Below are positions 4,862-47,203 of a stretch of DNA of 64,000 nucleotides, piece after piece (positions within the stretch are counted from its first letter, which is position 1; each line of letters starts with the position of its first letter). A program made the translations under genes and the position numbers. Under the pieces are notes generated by a model. The model did no database searches. It was not told the origin of the DNA and saw only the letters and a program-made list of their open reading frames with translations. Source of the stretch: Marinilabiliales bacterium (GTDB lineage Bacteria; Bacteroidota; Bacteroidia; Bacteroidales; PUMT01); assembly GCA_007695015.1 (NCBI GenBank), contig REEN01000058.1, positions 1 to 64,000 of the forward strand. Direction: 5' to 3'.

Positions 4862-5596
4862 TCAGGAAACCCGGCCGTTCCATTTCTTCCTCACTTTAGG
4901 CAGTTTCCACCATTGCACATAGGGAAACTCATGGTGTTCCAGATGGTATCCGAAATGGTAGCATGTTATAAAAGATAATAAAACCGGGTAATCATTACTT
5001 GTAGCGTTGTGGCGGTTGGTGTATCCCCCATTGGGTTCCCTGTGCGGAAGGTAGGTGCCGAAATAAAACAGCTGCAGGGTGCTGGCGAGGGCCGGAAAGG
5101 CCCAGAAAAGCATAAGGTTGGCCACAGGAATATTCAGTCCCAGGTGAAGGATATTGAAGATAATTGCCATGCCCAGGACCTGCCACCAGCTCAGGTAGGT
5201 TCTCATAAACTTAAGATACCAGCTGAAGAACCCGGGCTGTTTCCCGTCGTGATAATCCGGATCCTTCTCACTACCCGGATATTTATGATGGTCCCAGTGT
5301 TTTGTGTGAAGCTTTTTGTAGGGGAACAGCGCGTATAACAGTACGGCAACAGTGCCTGTTAATTTATTGATACTTAGATTTTGAGGAAAAACCAGGCCAT
5401 GCATGGCATCGTGGGCAGTGATGAACAGTCCCACATAAAGAAACATCTGTACAACCATAGCTGGTATGATAATGTAGACGGGGACTACCGACAGGTCCAT
5501 CTGCAGAAATATTACAAGTCCCGCCAGCCAGAGGCCCATAACAGCCAGTCCGGCAGCAAGCCCCATGTATCCATCCTTTTTTGTCGGGTTGTACAT
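4862..5596 (-). CDS. crtW: Beta-carotene ketolase (CrtW-type membrane di-iron oxygenase)
   Basis: Integral membrane fatty-acid-desaturase-fold enzyme of 244 residues. The three His clusters that bind two irons have the CrtW form: HDAMHG, HWDHHKYPGSEKDPDYHDG and FGYHLEHHEFP followed by QWWKLP. GLFITAHDAMHG and FGTYLPHR also match CrtW ketolases, which add keto groups at C4 of beta-ionone rings (canthaxanthin, astaxanthin). Several hydrophobic spans cover residues about 10-75 and 130-185. No other carotenoid gene is nearby, so the substrate must come from elsewhere in the genome. A generic desaturase or hydroxylase is the alternative but fits the motifs less well. Confidence 0.83.
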   Translation of the reverse strand: MYNPTKKDGYMGLAAGLAVMGLWLAGLVIFLQMDLSVVPVYIIIPAMVVQMFLYVGLFITAHDAMHGLVFPQNLSINKLTGTVAVLLYALFPYKKLHTKHWDHHKYPGSEKDPDYHDGKQPGFFSWYLKFMRTYLSWWQVLGMAIIFNILHLGLNIPVANLMLFWAFPALASTLQLFYFGTYLPHREPNGGYTNRHNATSNDYPVLLSFITCYHFGYHLEHHEFPYVQWWKLPKVRKKWNGRVS

Positions 5597-5720: not shown

Positions 5721-6236
5721 TTATCCGCCGCATGGATGGGTCCCGCCACCCTGGTGCACATGTCCGTGACTGACCTCTTCCTCGGTTGCATCCCTGATAT
5801 TGCAGACCTCGCCTTCAAAATAGAGAGTGTCGCCTGCAAGAGGATGGTTGAAATCCATCTTTACCGTCTCGCCTCCAATTTCAAGCACTATTCCATTCAG
5901 CCTGTTTCCGCTGTTATCCTGCATCGGTATATTGTTTCCGACCTTAAGGAGATTATCGTCAATCTTACCATCCACTTCAAAAATGTTCTTGGGGAGGTCG
6001 ACGATTGCCTCTTCTGAAACCTGTCCGTATGCCTTTTCAGGTTCAAGCATGAAGCTGAAAGGATCTCCCTTTTTCAAGCCGTCAATGTTGGCCTCAAAAT
6101 CGGGCAACAGATTTCCGCGGCCAAAAAGAAATGTAAGAGGTGCGTTCTTTTCAACTTTTTCGACGATCTCACCCTTTTGATCATCAACCCTGAGTTCATA
6201 AGTAAGCGATACAACCTTGTTCTCTTTAATAGTCAT
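5721..6236 (-). CDS. slyD: FKBP-type peptidyl-prolyl isomerase, SlyD family
   Basis: Cytoplasmic proline isomerase and folding helper, 171 residues, no signal peptide. The FKBP core (residues about 1-70 and 130-155) is split by the insert-in-flap domain typical of SlyD; PLTFLFGRGNLLPDFEANID and GLKKGD are the core strand/helix signature and EPEKAYG the flap entry. The C-terminus ends in a short metal-binding-type tail with four His and one Cys (HGHVHQGGGTHPCGG), as in E. coli SlyD though shorter. It stands alone, unlike the exported FKBP group at 14.7-18.2 kb, and has a hairpin in its own leader. Confidence 0.92.
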   Translation of the reverse strand: MTIKENKVVSLTYELRVDDQKGEIVEKVEKNAPLTFLFGRGNLLPDFEANIDGLKKGDPFSFMLEPEKAYGQVSEEAIVDLPKNIFEVDGKIDDNLLKVGNNIPMQDNSGNRLNGIVLEIGGETVKMDFNHPLAGDTLYFEGEVCNIRDATEEEVSHGHVHQGGGTHPCGG

Positions 6237-13990: not shown

Positions 13991-14731
13991 ATGTGTGCAA
14001 AAGTAATGAACAAAGAGACTAAGGCTGGCAGGCTTTATCTTATCCCGACACTTCTGGGCGATGTTGCTCCGGCCAGTGTGCTGCCGGCATCTGTATTCAA
14101 TGTGGTTAACAGAGTGCGCCATTATATTGCTGAAGATTTACGCTCAGCAAGAAGATTTTTAAAAAAAGCCGGTATCCCCGTTCAGTTCGATAATGTAAAG
14201 TTCTATTTACTTAATAAGTATACAGATGATGAAGAGTTGCAGAATTTTCTGTCCGGTGCAGCCAGGGGTTATGATACAGGATTGCTTTCCGAAGCGGGAA
14301 TGCCCTGCATTGCTGATCCCGGATCGCGTATTGTTGCGATGGCACATGATTCCGGGATCAGGGTTGTCCCGCTTACCGGTCCTTCATCAATAATGCTGGC
14401 ACTTATGTCATCGGGCCTGACAGGCCAGTCCTTTGTATTTCACGGGTATCTTCCTGTAAAACCGGACGGAAGAAATCAGGCAATCAGGAAGCTGGAGGCA
14501 GATTCTATTGAGCACAGCCAGTCGCAAATCTTTATGGAGACCCCTTACAGGAACAAAAAAGTGCTTGAAAGCGTCATTTCCGTATGTAAACCTTCAACCC
14601 GCCTCTGCATCGCATGCGACATAACGCTGGCATCAGAGTATATTCTGACCCGCAGGGTATCGGACTGGCAGAAAGATATTCCTGATATTCATAAGAGGCC
14701 GGCGATATTTATAATACAAGGCGAAAGATAA
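13991..14731 (+). CDS. SAM-dependent methyltransferase, RsmI-like
   Basis: Tetrapyrrole-methylase-fold protein of 246 residues related to RsmI, which methylates the 2'-OH of C1402 in 16S rRNA. The signatures are recognisable but diverged: GRLYLIPTLLGD (RsmI has LYVVPTPIGN), YIAEDLRSARRFLKKAGI (RsmI AEDTRHS), LLSEAGMPCIADPGSRIV and PLTGPSSIMLALMSSGL. This is the Bacteroidota side branch of the family, often annotated only as SAM-dependent methyltransferase. A second possible start lies six codons downstream. It ends 3 bases before the convergent FKBP gene. Confidence 0.82.
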   Translation: MCAKVMNKETKAGRLYLIPTLLGDVAPASVLPASVFNVVNRVRHYIAEDLRSARRFLKKAGIPVQFDNVKFYLLNKYTDDEELQNFLSGAARGYDTGLLSEAGMPCIADPGSRIVAMAHDSGIRVVPLTGPSSIMLALMSSGLTGQSFVFHGYLPVKPDGRNQAIRKLEADSIEHSQSQIFMETPYRNKKVLESVISVCKPSTRLCIACDITLASEYILTRRVSDWQKDIPDIHKRPAIFIIQGER

Positions 14732-14751
14732 ATATCAGGGTGTCCTGATAT
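14732..14751. terminator. Hairpin between convergent rsmI-like and FKBP genes
   Basis: ATATCAGG and CCTGATAT pair perfectly over 8 bp with a 4-base loop right at the two stop codons. On the plus strand it is followed by CAAAAA, on the minus strand by TTATC, so termination efficiency is uncertain in either direction. Confidence 0.4.
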
Positions 14752-15667
14752 CAAAAAGCTCAATATCGAAAACCAGAGGAGTGTAGCCCGGTATCTTTTC
14801 TCCTGATCCATGCTCTCCATATGCAAGCACGGAAGGAACAATGATCCTTGATCTGCCTCCCGGCTTCATGAGCATGACACCCTCTTCAAATCCCGGTATG
14901 GCTGCTTCCGCCCCTATGGGGAAACTGAATAAGGAGCCTCCGATATTTGTATCAAATACCCGGCCGTCAGTAAATGTACCAAGATAATAAACATCAACCC
15001 TGTCTTCCTCTTCAGGATGATTGTTGCCTGTTCCCTCAACTAACTCTATATAATACAGACCGCTTTCTCTTGCGGTAACTACCAGGTGGGTAGAATCGGT
15101 GTAGGATTCAAGGTATTTTTCAATCAGCTCTTCTTCATATGCGGCCGGATCATCAATAACCTTAACCAGTTCAAAATCATAAATGAGTGTGGTATACGGA
15201 GCAACGACACCTGTGCCCTTGCTGCCAAAACCAAGGTGGGAGGGTACTATTAGTGTTGCCGCACCCCCTTCCCGTGTCATTTTTAAACCCTCCTTTAGCC
15301 CTGAAACCATTATGGCATCAAGTTCCAGCCGCCTGTCGCCATAGATCTGGTTCGAAGAATGAATATTATTCCTTATCGCGACATCTTCGTCAGTAGTATC
15401 AAATACCTGGTTGAATAATGTCCTGGCTGTATAACTTATTATCAACCAGTCACCGGCTGAAGGTTTTGCACCCTGTCCTGCGTGTACGGGAATATAGTAC
15501 AGTCCGCTTCTTTCCGGCTCAACATCAATATCATTTTCACTTATATACTGTCGGAGATACCGCATCTCCTTCTCTTTATGAAGATCAGAACTGTCGTCAT
15601 TGCATGAAAGAAAAATGCCGGTGAATAAAAGCGGGAATATTATCCCGCAAATAATAAATCTTGTCAT
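14735..15667 (-). CDS. FKBP lipoprotein A, two FKBP domains
   Basis: Exported proline isomerase of 310 residues. A lipobox ends at C22 (GIFLSC) and is followed by NDDSS, an acidic stretch like the lipoprotein export signal that sends Bacteroidota lipoproteins to the surface. Two FKBP modules each begin with a SGLYYI strand (about residues 58 and 203). The second is well kept, with DGRVFDTN, IPGFEEGVMLMKPGG and YTPLVFDIEL; the first has weaker pocket residues. Last gene of the nrnA-FKBP group, 53 bases after FKBP lipoprotein B. Related to GldI of gliding bacteria, but no gliding gene is visible here. Confidence 0.88.
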   Translation of the reverse strand: MTRFIICGIIFPLLFTGIFLSCNDDSSDLHKEKEMRYLRQYISENDIDVEPERSGLYYIPVHAGQGAKPSAGDWLIISYTARTLFNQVFDTTDEDVAIRNNIHSSNQIYGDRRLELDAIMVSGLKEGLKMTREGGAATLIVPSHLGFGSKGTGVVAPYTTLIYDFELVKVIDDPAAYEEELIEKYLESYTDSTHLVVTARESGLYYIELVEGTGNNHPEEEDRVDVYYLGTFTDGRVFDTNIGGSLFSFPIGAEAAIPGFEEGVMLMKPGGRSRIIVPSVLAYGEHGSGEKIPGYTPLVFDIELFDIRTP

Positions 15668-15720
15668 CTGAAATGATAGCTTTATTAACAGTGTGATTTA
15701 AGTATGTCCTGATAAAAAGG

Positions 15721-16638
15721 TCAACCGATTTCGATCAATTCCACGTCAAAGATCAATGTTGAATAGGGAGGAATTATCCCATCCAGTGAGCCACCGGCCC
15801 CATAGCCAATATTCCATGGTATTATGAACCTGGCTTTACCACCTTTTCTCATAAGACGTATGCCTTCAATAAAACCGGGTATTATGTCAGTTGCAGAAGT
15901 GTTTAAGACCACGGGATTCGCCGCGCTGCTCTTGTCGAAAAGCCTGCCGTCGAGCAGGTAGCCCTTGAAATTTATTGTAACACTTTTATTATCACCGGGA
16001 AGGTTCCCCTCTCCCGGCTCCTTCTCTATATAATAGAGGCCACTCTGGGTAGGAGATACGTCAATATCATTATCTTCGATGAATTGTTCAAGCAAATTCT
16101 TTTCGTGCTCAGCTGGATCAGCTATGACATCAAGAAGGTCTACGTCATAGATCAGTGTAGAATATGGAGGTATGATACCGAGGTCGGCTGAACCGAATGC
16201 AAGATTTGAGGGTATTATCAGCCGGGATGATCCCCCTTCTTTCATAAGCATGATACCCTCCCTTAGTCCTTGAATGCCAAGCTGCTCAAGATTGAACTTG
16301 GCCGGGCCATAAAGCTTGTCTGCCCGCAAGATGTTGTGTTGTGAGGCAACATCTTCATCGCTTGTTTCAAAAACGGTACCATCAACCAGTTTCGCCACAA
16401 ATTCAATATTGACAAAGTCAGACCTTGATGGTATTTCACCTGTTCCGTCTTCAATGACAACATGGTATAAACCACTACTGGTTGGCTCAATGCCGGTATA
16501 CCCCTGTTCCTGAAGGTATTGCTCGAGCTTAACCCTTTCTTCTTCAATTCTGCTGTCTTCCCTGCTGCAACTTATAGCAAGTAAGCCTGTAAAAAGAATA
16601 ATAACAACACCGTAATTAAATAATGAATTTATTTGCAT
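15721..16638 (-). CDS. FKBP lipoprotein B, two FKBP domains
   Basis: 305 residues, same architecture as its downstream neighbour: signal peptide with lipobox LLAISC, an acidic and basic stretch (REDSRIEEER) after the Cys, then two FKBP modules that start at TSSGLYHV and TQSGLYYI. Each has a DGxxF(D/E) loop (DGTVFETS, DGRLFDKS) and a flap/exit strand YSTLIYDVDL or YSTLIFDVEL. The two modules of A and B align end to end, so one gene probably arose by duplication of the other. A 130-base gap to gene C may hold a separate promoter, but no full consensus was found there. Confidence 0.88.
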   Translation of the reverse strand: MQINSLFNYGVVIILFTGLLAISCSREDSRIEEERVKLEQYLQEQGYTGIEPTSSGLYHVVIEDGTGEIPSRSDFVNIEFVAKLVDGTVFETSDEDVASQHNILRADKLYGPAKFNLEQLGIQGLREGIMLMKEGGSSRLIIPSNLAFGSADLGIIPPYSTLIYDVDLLDVIADPAEHEKNLLEQFIEDNDIDVSPTQSGLYYIEKEPGEGNLPGDNKSVTINFKGYLLDGRLFDKSSAANPVVLNTSATDIIPGFIEGIRLMRKGGKARFIIPWNIGYGAGGSLDGIIPPYSTLIFDVELIEIG

Positions 16639-16768
16639 GGTATTATATGTTTTTAATTAAATATTCTGGTTTAATTAAGGGATTTGATTCCTCCGGTAAA
16701 AATAGTCTAAATAATTGTTTTTATAGGAATATGCTGTTCAACCATTGCCACAAACATTGTGCCTGTTT

Positions 16769-17668
16769 TTATTTTACTGATACAATCTCGACCTCATAGA
16801 CCATAGGGGTATACGGGGGTACTAACCCTGTTGATGAACCATGTTGACCATATGCAAACAGCGAGGGTATAAGAACACGTGCTCGCTCTCCTTCACGCAT
16901 CCGGCCAACAATGATTTCCAACCCTTTTATAAGCTGGTACTCATTCCCGAATACAAAACGGAATGTTTCATTCCTTTCATATGTAGAATCAAATATATCT
17001 CCGTCCAGGAACCTGCCTTCATAATTAAGTTCCACAATGTCTCCGGCCTTGACTGCTTTACCGGAACCCGGACTAAGCTGCAAAAAATAGATTCCGTTTT
17101 CATCAGGGGCCGCGCCATTCATCATTGAAGCAGCGAAATCATGCAGAGCTCTTTGTTCATTCAGAGGCATTACCTCATTCATTTCCGGATACCGGTAACC
17201 CGACCCGGAAAATTCATTCTCTCTCCTAATATCAAGCATTTTTACCGAGACTATGATATTATCACCTATTCTCAGGAATCCGGGCATGACCGTGTCAAGA
17301 GTTTTCATAAAAAAATTGGCGGCATCAATTATGAACTCAGCTTCGTCTCCCCTGGCAAGCATTGCAAAACACTCTTCAACTGAACCGTTATATGAAGGCG
17401 AATCCAGCCTGAACTCCCTGCGTGCATTGAAAAAAACAGAATCATCTGTAGTTCTGTAGGTAATGTCAGCTGTTATAATGTCACCTGGCACAGCCATTCT
17501 TTCTCCTTCACCAGTGACAATGAGCCGGTAATGGATTCCCGATACTGACCTGCTGAAACCAGGATACTCGCTGTCCATACCACAGCCGGCAACAATACTC
17601 AGTACTGTTAATAAAAGAACTGCGAAAAGCGGTTTTTGTTTCAGGTAATGTATAAGCGTTTTCATCAT
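16769..17668 (-). CDS. FKBP lipoprotein C, one degenerate and one intact FKBP domain
   Basis: 299 residues with lipobox SIVAGC followed by GMDSE. The N-terminal module (VSGIHYRLIVTGEGERM onward) keeps the fold outline but has lost the DGxxFD loop (it reads TTDDSVFFNA) and most pocket residues, so it is probably a binding or spacer domain. The C-terminal module is canonical: NGIYFLQLSPGSG, DGDIFDST, KGLEIIVGRMREGERARVLI and YTPMVYEVEI. It starts 6 bases after gene D ends, so they are co-translated. Confidence 0.85.
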   Translation of the reverse strand: MMKTLIHYLKQKPLFAVLLLTVLSIVAGCGMDSEYPGFSRSVSGIHYRLIVTGEGERMAVPGDIITADITYRTTDDSVFFNARREFRLDSPSYNGSVEECFAMLARGDEAEFIIDAANFFMKTLDTVMPGFLRIGDNIIVSVKMLDIRRENEFSGSGYRYPEMNEVMPLNEQRALHDFAASMMNGAAPDENGIYFLQLSPGSGKAVKAGDIVELNYEGRFLDGDIFDSTYERNETFRFVFGNEYQLIKGLEIIVGRMREGERARVLIPSLFAYGQHGSSTGLVPPYTPMVYEVEIVSVK

Positions 17669-17674
17669 CGTATT

Positions 17675-18223
17675 TCACCTGGGGATTACTTCCAGTACTT
17701 CAACCTCATATATCAAAACAGCCCGGGGAGGTATCCTGTTCTGATCACCAATCAGTCCGTGAGCAAGAAATGGCGGCAATATGAACCTTGCTTTATCTCC
17801 AACCCTGAGCATTAAAACACCCTCCTCAAGGCCGGATTCCACTCCCCCCTGTCCGACACGGAATGATTTTGGTCCGTTTCCATCCGAACTGTAGCAGACC
17901 CTGCCATCAAGCAGGCTGGAAGTGTAATTTATAGTTATTTGATGCCCTCTTTCAACCCGTTGCCCCTCTCCAGCCTGGTAGATCTGGAAGCCCAGTCCCG
18001 TTCCGGTAAACTCTATATCCCAGTTTCTGCGGCTAATATAGGCGTTTATAAGTTCCATATCCTTTCCGGCGAGGAACTGGTTTACCCTTATCATTTCCTC
18101 CCTTGTTAGTTCGTGGCTGTAACCGGGTTCAGGTTCTTTTCCGGTGCAGCCACTCATCAAACTGAATATGCAAACCGACAGGCCTATTAAAAACATATTT
18201 CTGAGAGCACAGGCAATGTTCAT
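17675..18223 (-). CDS. FKBP lipoprotein D, single FKBP domain (GldI-like)
   Basis: 182 residues: signal peptide with lipobox SLMSGC, an acidic spacer (TGKEPEPGYSHEL), a helical stretch, and one C-terminal FKBP domain with DGRVCYSS, ESGLEEGVLMLRVGD and RAVLIYEVEVLEV. The usual Asp of the DGxxFD loop is replaced (DGRVCYS), which may lower isomerase activity. Size and position next to nrnA fit GldI, the PPIase lipoprotein needed for gliding and type IX secretion in Flavobacteria. It starts the FKBP series, 12 bases after nrnA. Confidence 0.83.
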   Translation of the reverse strand: MNIACALRNMFLIGLSVCIFSLMSGCTGKEPEPGYSHELTREEMIRVNQFLAGKDMELINAYISRRNWDIEFTGTGLGFQIYQAGEGQRVERGHQITINYTSSLLDGRVCYSSDGNGPKSFRVGQGGVESGLEEGVLMLRVGDKARFILPPFLAHGLIGDQNRIPPRAVLIYEVEVLEVIPR

Positions 18224-18235
18224 CTATACCAGAAA

Positions 18236-19243
18236 TTATTCCGTTTTTATATAAGAAGGTAACAGTGAAATAAATTTATTTATTGTGTCCTGCAAACCAA
18301 GCTCTGATTCTCCACCGGATGCATTCTTATGCCCCCCTCCGTTAAAATTTTCCAGGGCAAACTTGCTGGCATCAAAGTGGTCTTTTGAACGGAATGATAT
18401 TTTTACATGACCATCATTCTCCATGAAAAAGGCTGCAAAACTTATTCCCTTAATGGAAAGCGGATAATTAACAAAACCCTCAGCGTCTCCTCTTACATAT
18501 TTATACATTCGTTTTTCCGAAAGGCTTAAGCTCATATATGCTGCCCTGAATTTTGGAAGCACGACCATTTTTTTATCGAGACAAAATCCAAGAAGACGCA
18601 TCCTGTTTTCAGAAAAATTATCGTAAACCCTTGAGAATATCTTATCCTTGTCGACACCCAGGCGGAGAAGTTCCGACAATACCCGGTAAGTTTCCGGCTC
18701 CGATGAATTATAGGAGAATGATCCGGTATCTGACATTATGCCGGCATAAATGCATGTAGCTACATTATTGTCAATGTATTTCAGTTTGCCTGTCATTTCA
18801 ATTAGGCGGTAAACCAATTCCGCAGTTGAGCTTGATCTTGTATCTGAAATTGTGATATCTGCAAAATGTCCGGGGTCAGGATGATGATCAATCAGAACCT
18901 TGCAAGCTTTTGATGCATTAATATGCGTTTGCGCTTCTCCGGCACGATCGGGTGAATTAAAATCCAGCATGAATAACATATCAGCTTCTTCTATAGCCAT
19001 TATTGCCTTCTTGCTTTCCTTGCTCATTATAGATATATGGCCGGTGCCGGGCAGCCATTTCAGGAAATCAGGATACTCATTCGGCATAACAACTGATGTG
19101 TTGATCTTTCCGGTATTTATAAGAACCTGGCAAAGAGCCAGTGAAGATCCTACAGCATCACCATCGGGATTGACATGACTCAGGATAACTATATTTTTGG
19201 AGGATTTTAATATGCTTTCCACTTTATCTGCAAGATCAGTCAT
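18236..19243 (-). CDS. nrnA: DHH/DHHA1 phosphoesterase, NrnA-type oligoribonuclease/pAp phosphatase
   Basis: Degrades short RNA oligonucleotides and 3'-phosphoadenosine 5'-phosphate in the cytoplasm. The DHH domain ligands are in place: SHVNPDGDAVGSSLAL, LDFNSPDRAGEA and VDHHPDPG, plus SDTGSFSYNSSEPETYRV. The C-terminal DHHA1 domain carries the GGGHKNASGG signature. 335 residues, the normal length. It leads the FKBP series and diverges from ndk across 109 bases, an association that I recall as common around gldI in Bacteroidota. Confidence 0.92.
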   Translation of the reverse strand: MTDLADKVESILKSSKNIVILSHVNPDGDAVGSSLALCQVLINTGKINTSVVMPNEYPDFLKWLPGTGHISIMSKESKKAIMAIEEADMLFMLDFNSPDRAGEAQTHINASKACKVLIDHHPDPGHFADITISDTRSSSTAELVYRLIEMTGKLKYIDNNVATCIYAGIMSDTGSFSYNSSEPETYRVLSELLRLGVDKDKIFSRVYDNFSENRMRLLGFCLDKKMVVLPKFRAAYMSLSLSEKRMYKYVRGDAEGFVNYPLSIKGISFAAFFMENDGHVKISFRSKDHFDASKFALENFNGGGHKNASGGESELGLQDTINKFISLLPSYIKTE

Positions 19244-19352: not shown

Positions 19353-19781
19353 ATGGCTGGAAAACAGACACTGTTACTGATAAAACCACATGCAGTAAGA
19401 GATAACAAGGCAGGTGAGATATTATCGATGCTGTGTAATGCAGGCTTCAGGATAATCGCACTTAAAATGACCCGGTTGAATGGTCGCGAGAGTGAAGAGT
19501 TTTACAATGAGCACACAGGCAAGTACTTTTTTGAGCCTCTTGTTGAAATGATGTCGGGCGGTCCAATAATTGCTGCAATCCTTTTCAGGAATGATGCAGT
19601 AGCCGAACTCAGGAGTGTAGTCGGCAAAACAAATCCTGAAGAGGCAGCTCCAGGGACAGTCAGAAAAATATTTGGCATTTCAATGCGCGAAAACGCCGTG
19701 CACGCATCAGATTGTGATGCCAATGCACAAAGAGAATGTTCATTCTTTTTCTCTGACGATGATATATACCATCATATATAG
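19353..19781 (+). CDS. ndk: Nucleoside diphosphate kinase
   Basis: Transfers the gamma phosphate between nucleoside triphosphates and diphosphates via a phosphohistidine. The active-site His is H117 in RENAVHASD; LLIKPHAVRD at the start and GKTNPEEAAPGTVRKIFG are typical. 142 residues is normal for the hexameric family. Monocistronic, divergent from nrnA and convergent with the PlsC-like gene. Confidence 0.96.
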   Translation: MAGKQTLLLIKPHAVRDNKAGEILSMLCNAGFRIIALKMTRLNGRESEEFYNEHTGKYFFEPLVEMMSGGPIIAAILFRNDAVAELRSVVGKTNPEEAAPGTVRKIFGISMRENAVHASDCDANAQRECSFFFSDDDIYHHI

Positions 19782-45868: not shown

Positions 45869-47203
45869 CTACCTTACGGGACTCAAAGGGCTGGTTTCAC
45901 GTATAAATATGAACGAGTCGTACCTTTCCGGCAGAATTGTCGGCACATAGTTGCCTGTCTCATGGCGGGGATTGTAAACAACCCCTATTGCCCGGTGTCC
46001 CCTGAATTCATTTAGTTCAGGCTTACTACGGTCCTCTTCGTCAAAAACAAGGTAGAACTGCTCATAATCAACATGTCCGAATATATATTCATAGCTCCCT
46101 TCCATTCCCCGGGGAACCGTCATTCTTTGCATATCCGACCCCCAGCTGCTTCCTGCATTGACCCTGCCGGTATAGGTACCGAAACCGTTGATGAACACAT
46201 TGTCATGGCCAAGCTCCTGCCTGCTGAGCATGCCTATATTGACCATATTCTGGTACCTCATGACAGTTGCGCGGGCATCACCGACATGTGTATTATGGGC
46301 CCAGACTACACCCCTGGCATCTTCACCGTACCAGCTGAGAAGTCTTTTCACGGTTTCCCACATATGGGTTGCCCGGCTGTTCCAGGAAGAGGTATTATCA
46401 GTCACTGCAAGCCTGAAAAAATCCTCTGCATTCTTTACCACATAAGCATTCTGTTTGGCCCTTCTGAATTCATCAATGTTTTCATCATCCACTTTTTGGG
46501 CCAGTTCCGTTAAAAGGCCGGCCACATTACGCAGGTCATCCTCACAGGAACGGTGTCCCCTTCCGACTACAGCCCTTGCATATACCCATTCATCACGGTC
46601 ATAGGCAGCAAAGCATTGCATGCTCTGGCTTATCACATCATGATGCTCACTGAGGTTTTTTTCAGAATACCTGAGAAGGTCATCCATCGCCTCCCACTGT
46701 CCGTATACGTCCATGCCATAAAACCCGACCTTATCCTCTTCCGGCAACTGATCGTTATATTGCCTCAACCATTCAGCCAATTCTTCAATATCTGTATTTC
46801 CCCACATCCATTCAGGCCACCTGTCGAAACGGCGAAGCACCCTTCTGGCCGATGATGGCGCTCCCTGACGCCCTTTAACATACTCATTCAGCCTGTAAAT
46901 AGAGGCCCAGTCACCTTCAACTGCAACAAACGAAAACCCCTTCTCCTTAATCAGGCGCCTGGTGATATCAGCCCGCCATGAATAAAACTCCGATGTGCCG
47001 TGCGAGGCCTCGCCCAACAAAACCAGCTTCCTGCCACCGGCAAGTTCAATAATGCCGTCGAGGTCGCCGGCATCCTGAACGGGAACAGCCTTGCGAGAGA
47101 AGTATTCAATCAGTCCGTCAGCTCCGCTATCCGGGGCACTGCCCGAAAGGAGAAAAAAAGATATGAAAACAGGAACAAGCTTTAATGAAGTATTAAATCT
47201 CAT
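45869..47203 (-). CDS. Erythromycin esterase family protein, exported
   Basis: 444 residues with a signal peptide (cleavage near SGSAPDSG). The family core is present: LLGEASHGTSEFYSWRADIT, VAVEGDWASIYRLNEYVKG, FYGMDVYGQW and VVWAHNTHVGDAR, with the expected catalytic Glu and His pairs. Members of this fold include Ere macrolide esterases and succinoglycan-locus proteins; most are of unknown substrate, so no resistance function is claimed. Convergent with the TIGR02117 gene, divergent from argR. Confidence 0.88.
   Translation of the reverse strand: MRFNTSLKLVPVFISFFLLSGSAPDSGADGLIEYFSRKAVPVQDAGDLDGIIELAGGRKLVLLGEASHGTSEFYSWRADITRRLIKEKGFSFVAVEGDWASIYRLNEYVKGRQGAPSSARRVLRRFDRWPEWMWGNTDIEELAEWLRQYNDQLPEEDKVGFYGMDVYGQWEAMDDLLRYSEKNLSEHHDVISQSMQCFAAYDRDEWVYARAVVGRGHRSCEDDLRNVAGLLTELAQKVDDENIDEFRRAKQNAYVVKNAEDFFRLAVTDNTSSWNSRATHMWETVKRLLSWYGEDARGVVWAHNTHVGDARATVMRYQNMVNIGMLSRQELGHDNVFINGFGTYTGRVNAGSSWGSDMQRMTVPRGMEGSYEYIFGHVDYEQFYLVFDEEDRSKPELNEFRGHRAIGVVYNPRHETGNYVPTILPERYDSFIFIRETSPLSPVR

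Follow-up and report, generated by a model that had tools for sequence, protein, structure and literature searches.

Which function does a row of four FKBP lipoprotein genes serve behind nrnA, the gene of a DHH/DHHA1 phosphoesterase, in a Marinilabiliales bacterium? We addressed this question for a window comprising the whole analysed stretch of 64,000 nucleotides (contig REEN01000058.1), in which nrnA (18236–19243; Pfam DHH 8.6e-23, DHHA1 2.3e-10; 93.8 bits against the NrnA model, under its cut-off of 350) is the upstream gene and the syntenic anchor of the row. All five genes lie on the minus strand. The FKBP genes are termed A to D in the order of transcription, opposite to the letters of the initial annotation of this DNA, whose D with the motif DGRVCYS is our gene A and whose C with a degenerate first module is our gene B. 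The locus turned out to be shared and conserved across much of Bacteroidia, and we infer from its members which cell-surface machines they may serve.

The four reading frames encode lipoproteins with 1, 2, 2 and 2 FKBP modules, and their coordinates beside nrnA agree with those annotated initially. Gene A (17675–18223; 182 aa; FKBP_C 4.1e-18) contains a single FKBP module, gene B (16769–17668; 299 aa; C..YPGF start) has an FKBP_C match of 2.2e-24 in its carboxy-terminal module, and genes C (15721–16638; 305 aa; export signal CSREDSR; FKBP_C 9.7e-40) and D (14735–15667; 310 aa; export signal CNDDSSD; FKBP_C 1.5e-35) are each matched in two stretches. At the Pfam gathering cut-off of 21.1 bits, FKBP_C (PF00254) yielded 1, 1, 2 and 2 domains for A to D, six of the seven modules. 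The remaining one, the first module of B (B1, 17240–17551), was unmatched by Pfam and was found by a lineage-specific FKBP profile with 26 bits; profile–profile comparison of the B1 family with the other FKBP families of the array gave probabilities of 98.8–99.7%. The AlphaFold 2 model of B1 exhibits an FKBP-like strand order with weak topology at low confidence (pLDDT 65), and that of protein C (pLDDT 88.6) two confident FKBP domains with a helix ahead of each.

The residues of the prolyl isomerase active site are largely kept in B2 (16772–17107), C2 (15724–16053) and D2 (14744–15073), partly kept in C1 (16123–16485) and D1 (15155–15517), remodelled in the module of A (17684–18010) and lost in B1, a non-canonical module conserved class-wide. 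In A, DGRVCYS stands in place of ..FD, Glu in place of I56 and His in place of Y82. The same changes recur throughout the proteins encoded in the position of A directly behind nrnA, termed slot 1, where the F36–D37 positions are occupied by Cys (69%) and Tyr (92%), I56 is mostly replaced by Glu (80%) and Y82 mostly by His (58%), the GD residues being retained at 96–98%. Outside the family of the window, the canonical FD is found in 0 of 97 slot-1 proteins. Within the genus of the window no module is better conserved than A (mean identity 0.73 versus 0.60–0.67), and B1 and B2 both reach 0.63. Decay of A and B1 is ruled out by this conservation in congeners together with the class-wide slot-1 motifs, so the domains described initially as degenerate are real sequence features, yet kept variants and not relics. 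DGRVCYS characterises the slot-1 proteins, a conserved FKBP family with a remodelled active site. The altered pocket argues for a binding and not a catalytic role, and A and B1 are probably binding modules.

To place the array in its class, we sampled 123 nrnA loci across Bacteroidia. One or more FKBP genes in the same direction adjoin nrnA in 102 of these; at least two modules are present in 88 loci, at least five in 43, at least seven in 26 and ten in one, whereby some loci counted as having no FKBP carry a BamK gene missed by the FKBP profile. Seven modules are therefore not exceptional, and 18 of the 26 loci with at least seven lie outside the family of the window. The largest array (L152) comprises five genes with ten modules behind nrnA, arranged 1-2-2-2-3. 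Three gene types recur: slot 1 with one FKBP domain and an amino-terminal extension, the B type, in which a canonical module follows a non-canonical one, and tandem genes that contain two or three modules. No locus of the sample has both a slot-1 gene (present in 112 loci) and BamK (present in 16); a lone BamK without a slot-1 gene is present at L061–L066, L271, L275, L294, L298, L306, L308, L310, L313, L314 and L317. Genuine GldI and BamK are encoded at the same chromosomal position, and arrays occur in much of the class. BamK has been known since 2025 as a surface subunit of the β-barrel assembly machinery (BAM).

Gene A occupies the place of gldI. In the flavobacterial (Flavobacteriaceae-like) genomes checked in detail, genuine GldI, known as a gliding protein since 2004, is encoded directly behind nrnA, with scores of 187.7–263.1 bits in eight genomes against a TIGR03516 cut-off of 157.6. 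Four of the flavobacterial nrnA–gldI loci (L135, L142, L156, L181) have one or two more FKBP genes of 240–380 aa behind gldI. In profile–profile comparison slot 1 is the best match of GldI (E 1.3e-29 versus 2.4e-20 for the next family), and the GldI model matches 33 of the 33 slot-1 proteins scanned, no other model reaching as good an E-value for slot 1. In a free quick tree GldI came out elsewhere, as a long branch, and constraining the A modules and GldI together gave a likelihood above that of the free tree. Position and profile thus both point to orthology of GldI and A, with the caveat that A scores far under the GldI cut-off. The best reading of these sequences is that A is the positional counterpart of GldI, which amends the earlier statement that no gliding gene is present in the window. 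The description of an expanded GldI-type locus likewise fits by position, with A in the GldI slot; none of the four proteins exceeds the GldI cut-off, and C and D fall into a separate lineage nearer to BamM and BamK.

The relationships of this second lineage were assessed for C, D and X together (C/D/X), where X denotes the single-domain gene behind A in two more distant Bacteroidales. The BamM model matches 24 of 24 C/D/X proteins (best 1.2e-22) versus 3 of 33 slot-1 proteins, and the BamK model 13 of 24 versus 4 of 33; D itself has a weak match to the BamK amino terminus (residues 9–49, E 0.0027). Genuine BamK is encoded directly behind nrnA in Bacteroidaceae-like genomes, as the only FKBP-related gene found there; this nrnA-linked BamK, a subunit of the BAM surface dome whose structure is solved, matches the BAM chain 9his_J. 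In the window, A and B separate nrnA from C. An assignment of C and D to BamJ was rejected, as their single domains stay under the BamJ cut-off and genuine BamJ is not near nrnA.

All four proteins bear out the annotated lipobox and acidic residues, with at least two of the latter in the six positions after the cysteine (A TGKEPE, B GMDSEY, C SREDSR, D NDDSSD). As the mark of surface export in Bacteroidota lipoproteins we took at least two acidic residues within these six positions, conserved in relatives. It is present in 35 of 38 C/D/X relatives, 25 of 89 slot-1 proteins and 15 of 86 relatives of B; the view of the array as surface-directed is thus supported for C and D only. Since BamK, a known surface protein, carries the acidic signal in 2 of 15 cases only, its lack is no proof that A and B are periplasmic.

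The array has also changed locally. Within the genus of the window, ndk / nrnA-A-B-C-D / rsmI is the conserved gene order, with B missing from 3 of the 11 congeners that have the locus; the sister genus has A, B and one single C/D gene, and in the two more distant Bacteroidales nrnA is accompanied by A and the single-domain gene. The gene order kept in related genera puts the locus far beyond chance. An insertion of ~14 residues is common to C1 and D1. A tree of the modules unites C1, D1 and the first module of the sister-genus gene behind a branch of 97%, in company with the long branch of GldI; the second modules of these genes are placed elsewhere. A module duplication within D alone (D1 and D2 as one clade) was rejected by the approximately unbiased test (p 0.035), whereas the corresponding clade of C1 and C2, implying duplication within C alone, was not (p 0.14). 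The simplest reading is that a two-module gene came into being first and that C and D are copies of this entire gene; given the small number of columns behind the tree, part of the support comes from the shared insertion and from synteny. The domain-by-domain tree proposed initially indicates that modules did duplicate, and the most plausible unit copied in this lineage is an entire gene of two modules (C/D) and not a run of modules.

Taken together, we see about an even chance that the array provides outer-membrane FKBP lipoproteins for cell-surface building, with A as a GldI-like protein, B as its companion, and C and D as accessories of the BAM canopy. These roles are proposed because BamK/BamJ and BamM sit as surface subunits on the outside of BAM (PMC12578637, PMC12611786) and GldI is needed for the stability of GldJ and GldK (PMC9127263, PMC8444969), the need for GldI in gliding and type IX secretion through GldK and GldJ stability being known for F. 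johnsoniae only (PMC9127263). By analogy, A would be a GldI-like binder keeping ring lipoproteins of the GldK/GldJ type of the type IX secretion system (T9SS) and gliding apparatus folded and stable, acting as a holdase and not through fast prolyl isomerisation. Its companion B, probably periplasmic, would combine the binding module B1 with the predicted catalytic module B2. C and D would reach the cell surface, where their substrates would be the extracellular portions of outer-membrane and surface proteins that have just been inserted; they would work at the BAM canopy or close to it, in the place held by the FKBP subunits BamK/BamJ in Bacteroides and BamM in Flavobacterium. More tentatively, with the balance leaning against it, GldI and BamK may both derive from one ancient nrnA-linked FKBP array providing both the T9SS and the BAM canopy with accessory folding lipoproteins; genomes like this one would have kept both kinds next to each other, slot 1 being a conserved non-isomerase whose C-Y-S/E/H pocket holds a dedicated ligand. 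With both genes at one site and a widespread array, the idea that the folding accessories of the T9SS and of BAM share an origin becomes open to direct test. No publication linking GldI with BamK or describing the nrnA-linked array was found, within an incomplete coverage of the literature, and neither BAM paper names GldI in its main text.

Several results weigh against the assignment of these genes to the two machines. No protein exceeds the curated cut-off for GldI, BamK or BamM: the TIGR03516 scores are 54.5 bits for A and 68.9 for D, the best of the four, against 157.6, the best BamK (NF053690) score is 17.6 of 120 bits, and the C/D pair reaches 49.1 and 70.3 of 315 bits for BamM (NF053691). 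The BamJ cut-off (NF053689, 100 bits) is passed by C and D only as a two-domain sum, with single domains at no more than 69.7 and 78.5 bits, and the best single-domain BamJ match of the genome, over the cut-off with 112.2 bits, lies elsewhere; it is an FkpA/Mip-like FKBP lipoprotein (G000:C35; L001, 1483–2166). Comparison of the BamK amino terminus gave 88% probability (E 3.2e-6) for C/D/X outside the family of the window and 63% for slot 1, a weak link that favours C/D/X as kin of BamK without settling it. The Bacteroides-type BamH model has no match in this genome, although it also misses a flavobacterium. Foldseek returned generic FKBP matches only and no specific partner structure, and phmmer searches of the PDB with the four proteins were equally generic. 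In F. johnsoniae, BAM preparations were devoid of T9SS components and deletion of bamM had little effect.

A dedication of the whole array to the T9SS and its cargo, with A as GldI and with B, C and D either acting as peptidyl-prolyl isomerases (PPIs) alongside the SprA translocon or helping secreted cargo to fold, in the manner of the lipoprotein PPI Fjoh_4997, appears rather unlikely to us. The initial annotation had regarded a genome without a usable secretion system as speaking against its own reading of the locus; here gldM (389.7 bits) and 28 T9SS C-terminal signals were found, so that a secretion system able to use such proteins is present, a point that counts for our preferred reading as well. 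Arrays are moreover common in a class with near-universal gldM, and Bacteroidaceae-like genomes without gldM have BamK only, or nothing, behind nrnA. The gldM-negative sample is, however, essentially one family, and because gldM is missing almost only there, the correlation amounts to one event and presence or absence is uninformative. Likewise, C and D match the translocon PPI chain 6h3i_B with 63.5 and 70.9 bits (TMt 0.86), but no better than they match FkpA or Mip-like proteins; every C/D/X member scanned shows a relationship to BamM, and no notable consequence was seen on deleting the PPI bound to SprA (PMC9127263).

That the closest solved structures are generic FKBPs and the active sites of B2, C2 and D2 largely canonical would also suit general envelope chaperones of the FkpA/Mip kind, multiplied by duplication and tied to no dedicated machine. 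We regard this as unlikely, given the class-wide link to nrnA, the recurrent gene order, slot-specific signatures and export signals, and the FkpA/Mip-like lipoprotein that the genome already has. The serial holdase suggested initially, in which tandem surface modules hold one client or pass it along the row, could draw on the helical spacers of the two-module proteins and on the mixture of binding-only and catalytic-looking modules. With A and B lacking a conserved surface-export signal, the array may instead be split across two membrane sides, and with module numbers varying from 1 to 10 among loci with an array, such a relay is highly improbable.

The genes nrnA-A-B-C-D probably form one operon, with intergenic gaps of 12 bp (nrnA–A), 6 bp (A–B), 130 bp (B–C) and 53 bp (C–D). 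The run is faced by ndk (19353–19781), and a terminator-like 9-pair stem (14731–14752, minus strand; consensus match only) closes the row between D and the convergent rsmI, where gene D ends. The Bacteroidota promoter pattern occurs twice in the window, which is chance level, and not at the cluster; Rfam and tRNA scans gave no match. The genome (3.4 Mb, 98.5% complete) has its nearest named relatives in Bacteroidales metagenome-assembled genomes labelled CSSed16-5cm. Elsewhere in the window, a further FKBP outside the array is SlyD-like without a lipobox (5721–6236), the product of 4862–5596 is a near match to the β-carotene ketolase CrtW (336.5 bits versus a cut-off of 350), and an erythromycin esterase family protein (45869–47203; 1.5e-102) is unconnected to the array.

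In comparison with known systems, the T9SS translocon PPI (Fjoh_4997, PDB 6h3i chain B) resembles the array as an FKBP lipoprotein of an outer-membrane machine with a significant sequence match, which is however generic. BamJ agrees with C and D in that its cut-off is exceeded by the whole proteins, and differs in that this holds for the two-domain sum only and that genuine BamJ is encoded away from nrnA. BamM of the F. johnsoniae BAM canopy is likewise a two-domain surface lipoprotein with an amino-terminal PPI fold, but its second domain is a calcium-binding non-FKBP domain, and C and D stay under its cut-off. BamK (NF053690/DUF4827) of Bacteroides and Porphyromonas shares with C and D the nrnA locus, and is a lipoprotein with a short amino-terminal helix to which the amino termini of C/D/X give weak matches (13 of 24); it consists of one very divergent domain in place of two FKBP_C modules, and C and D lie far under its cut-off. 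GldI of Flavobacterium johnsoniae differs from A in score (54.5 versus 157.6 bits) and in the detail of the CYS motif, and shares with it the slot behind nrnA, the single FKBP domain with an amino-terminal extension, the absence of the canonical F36/D37 and a best profile match to slot 1.

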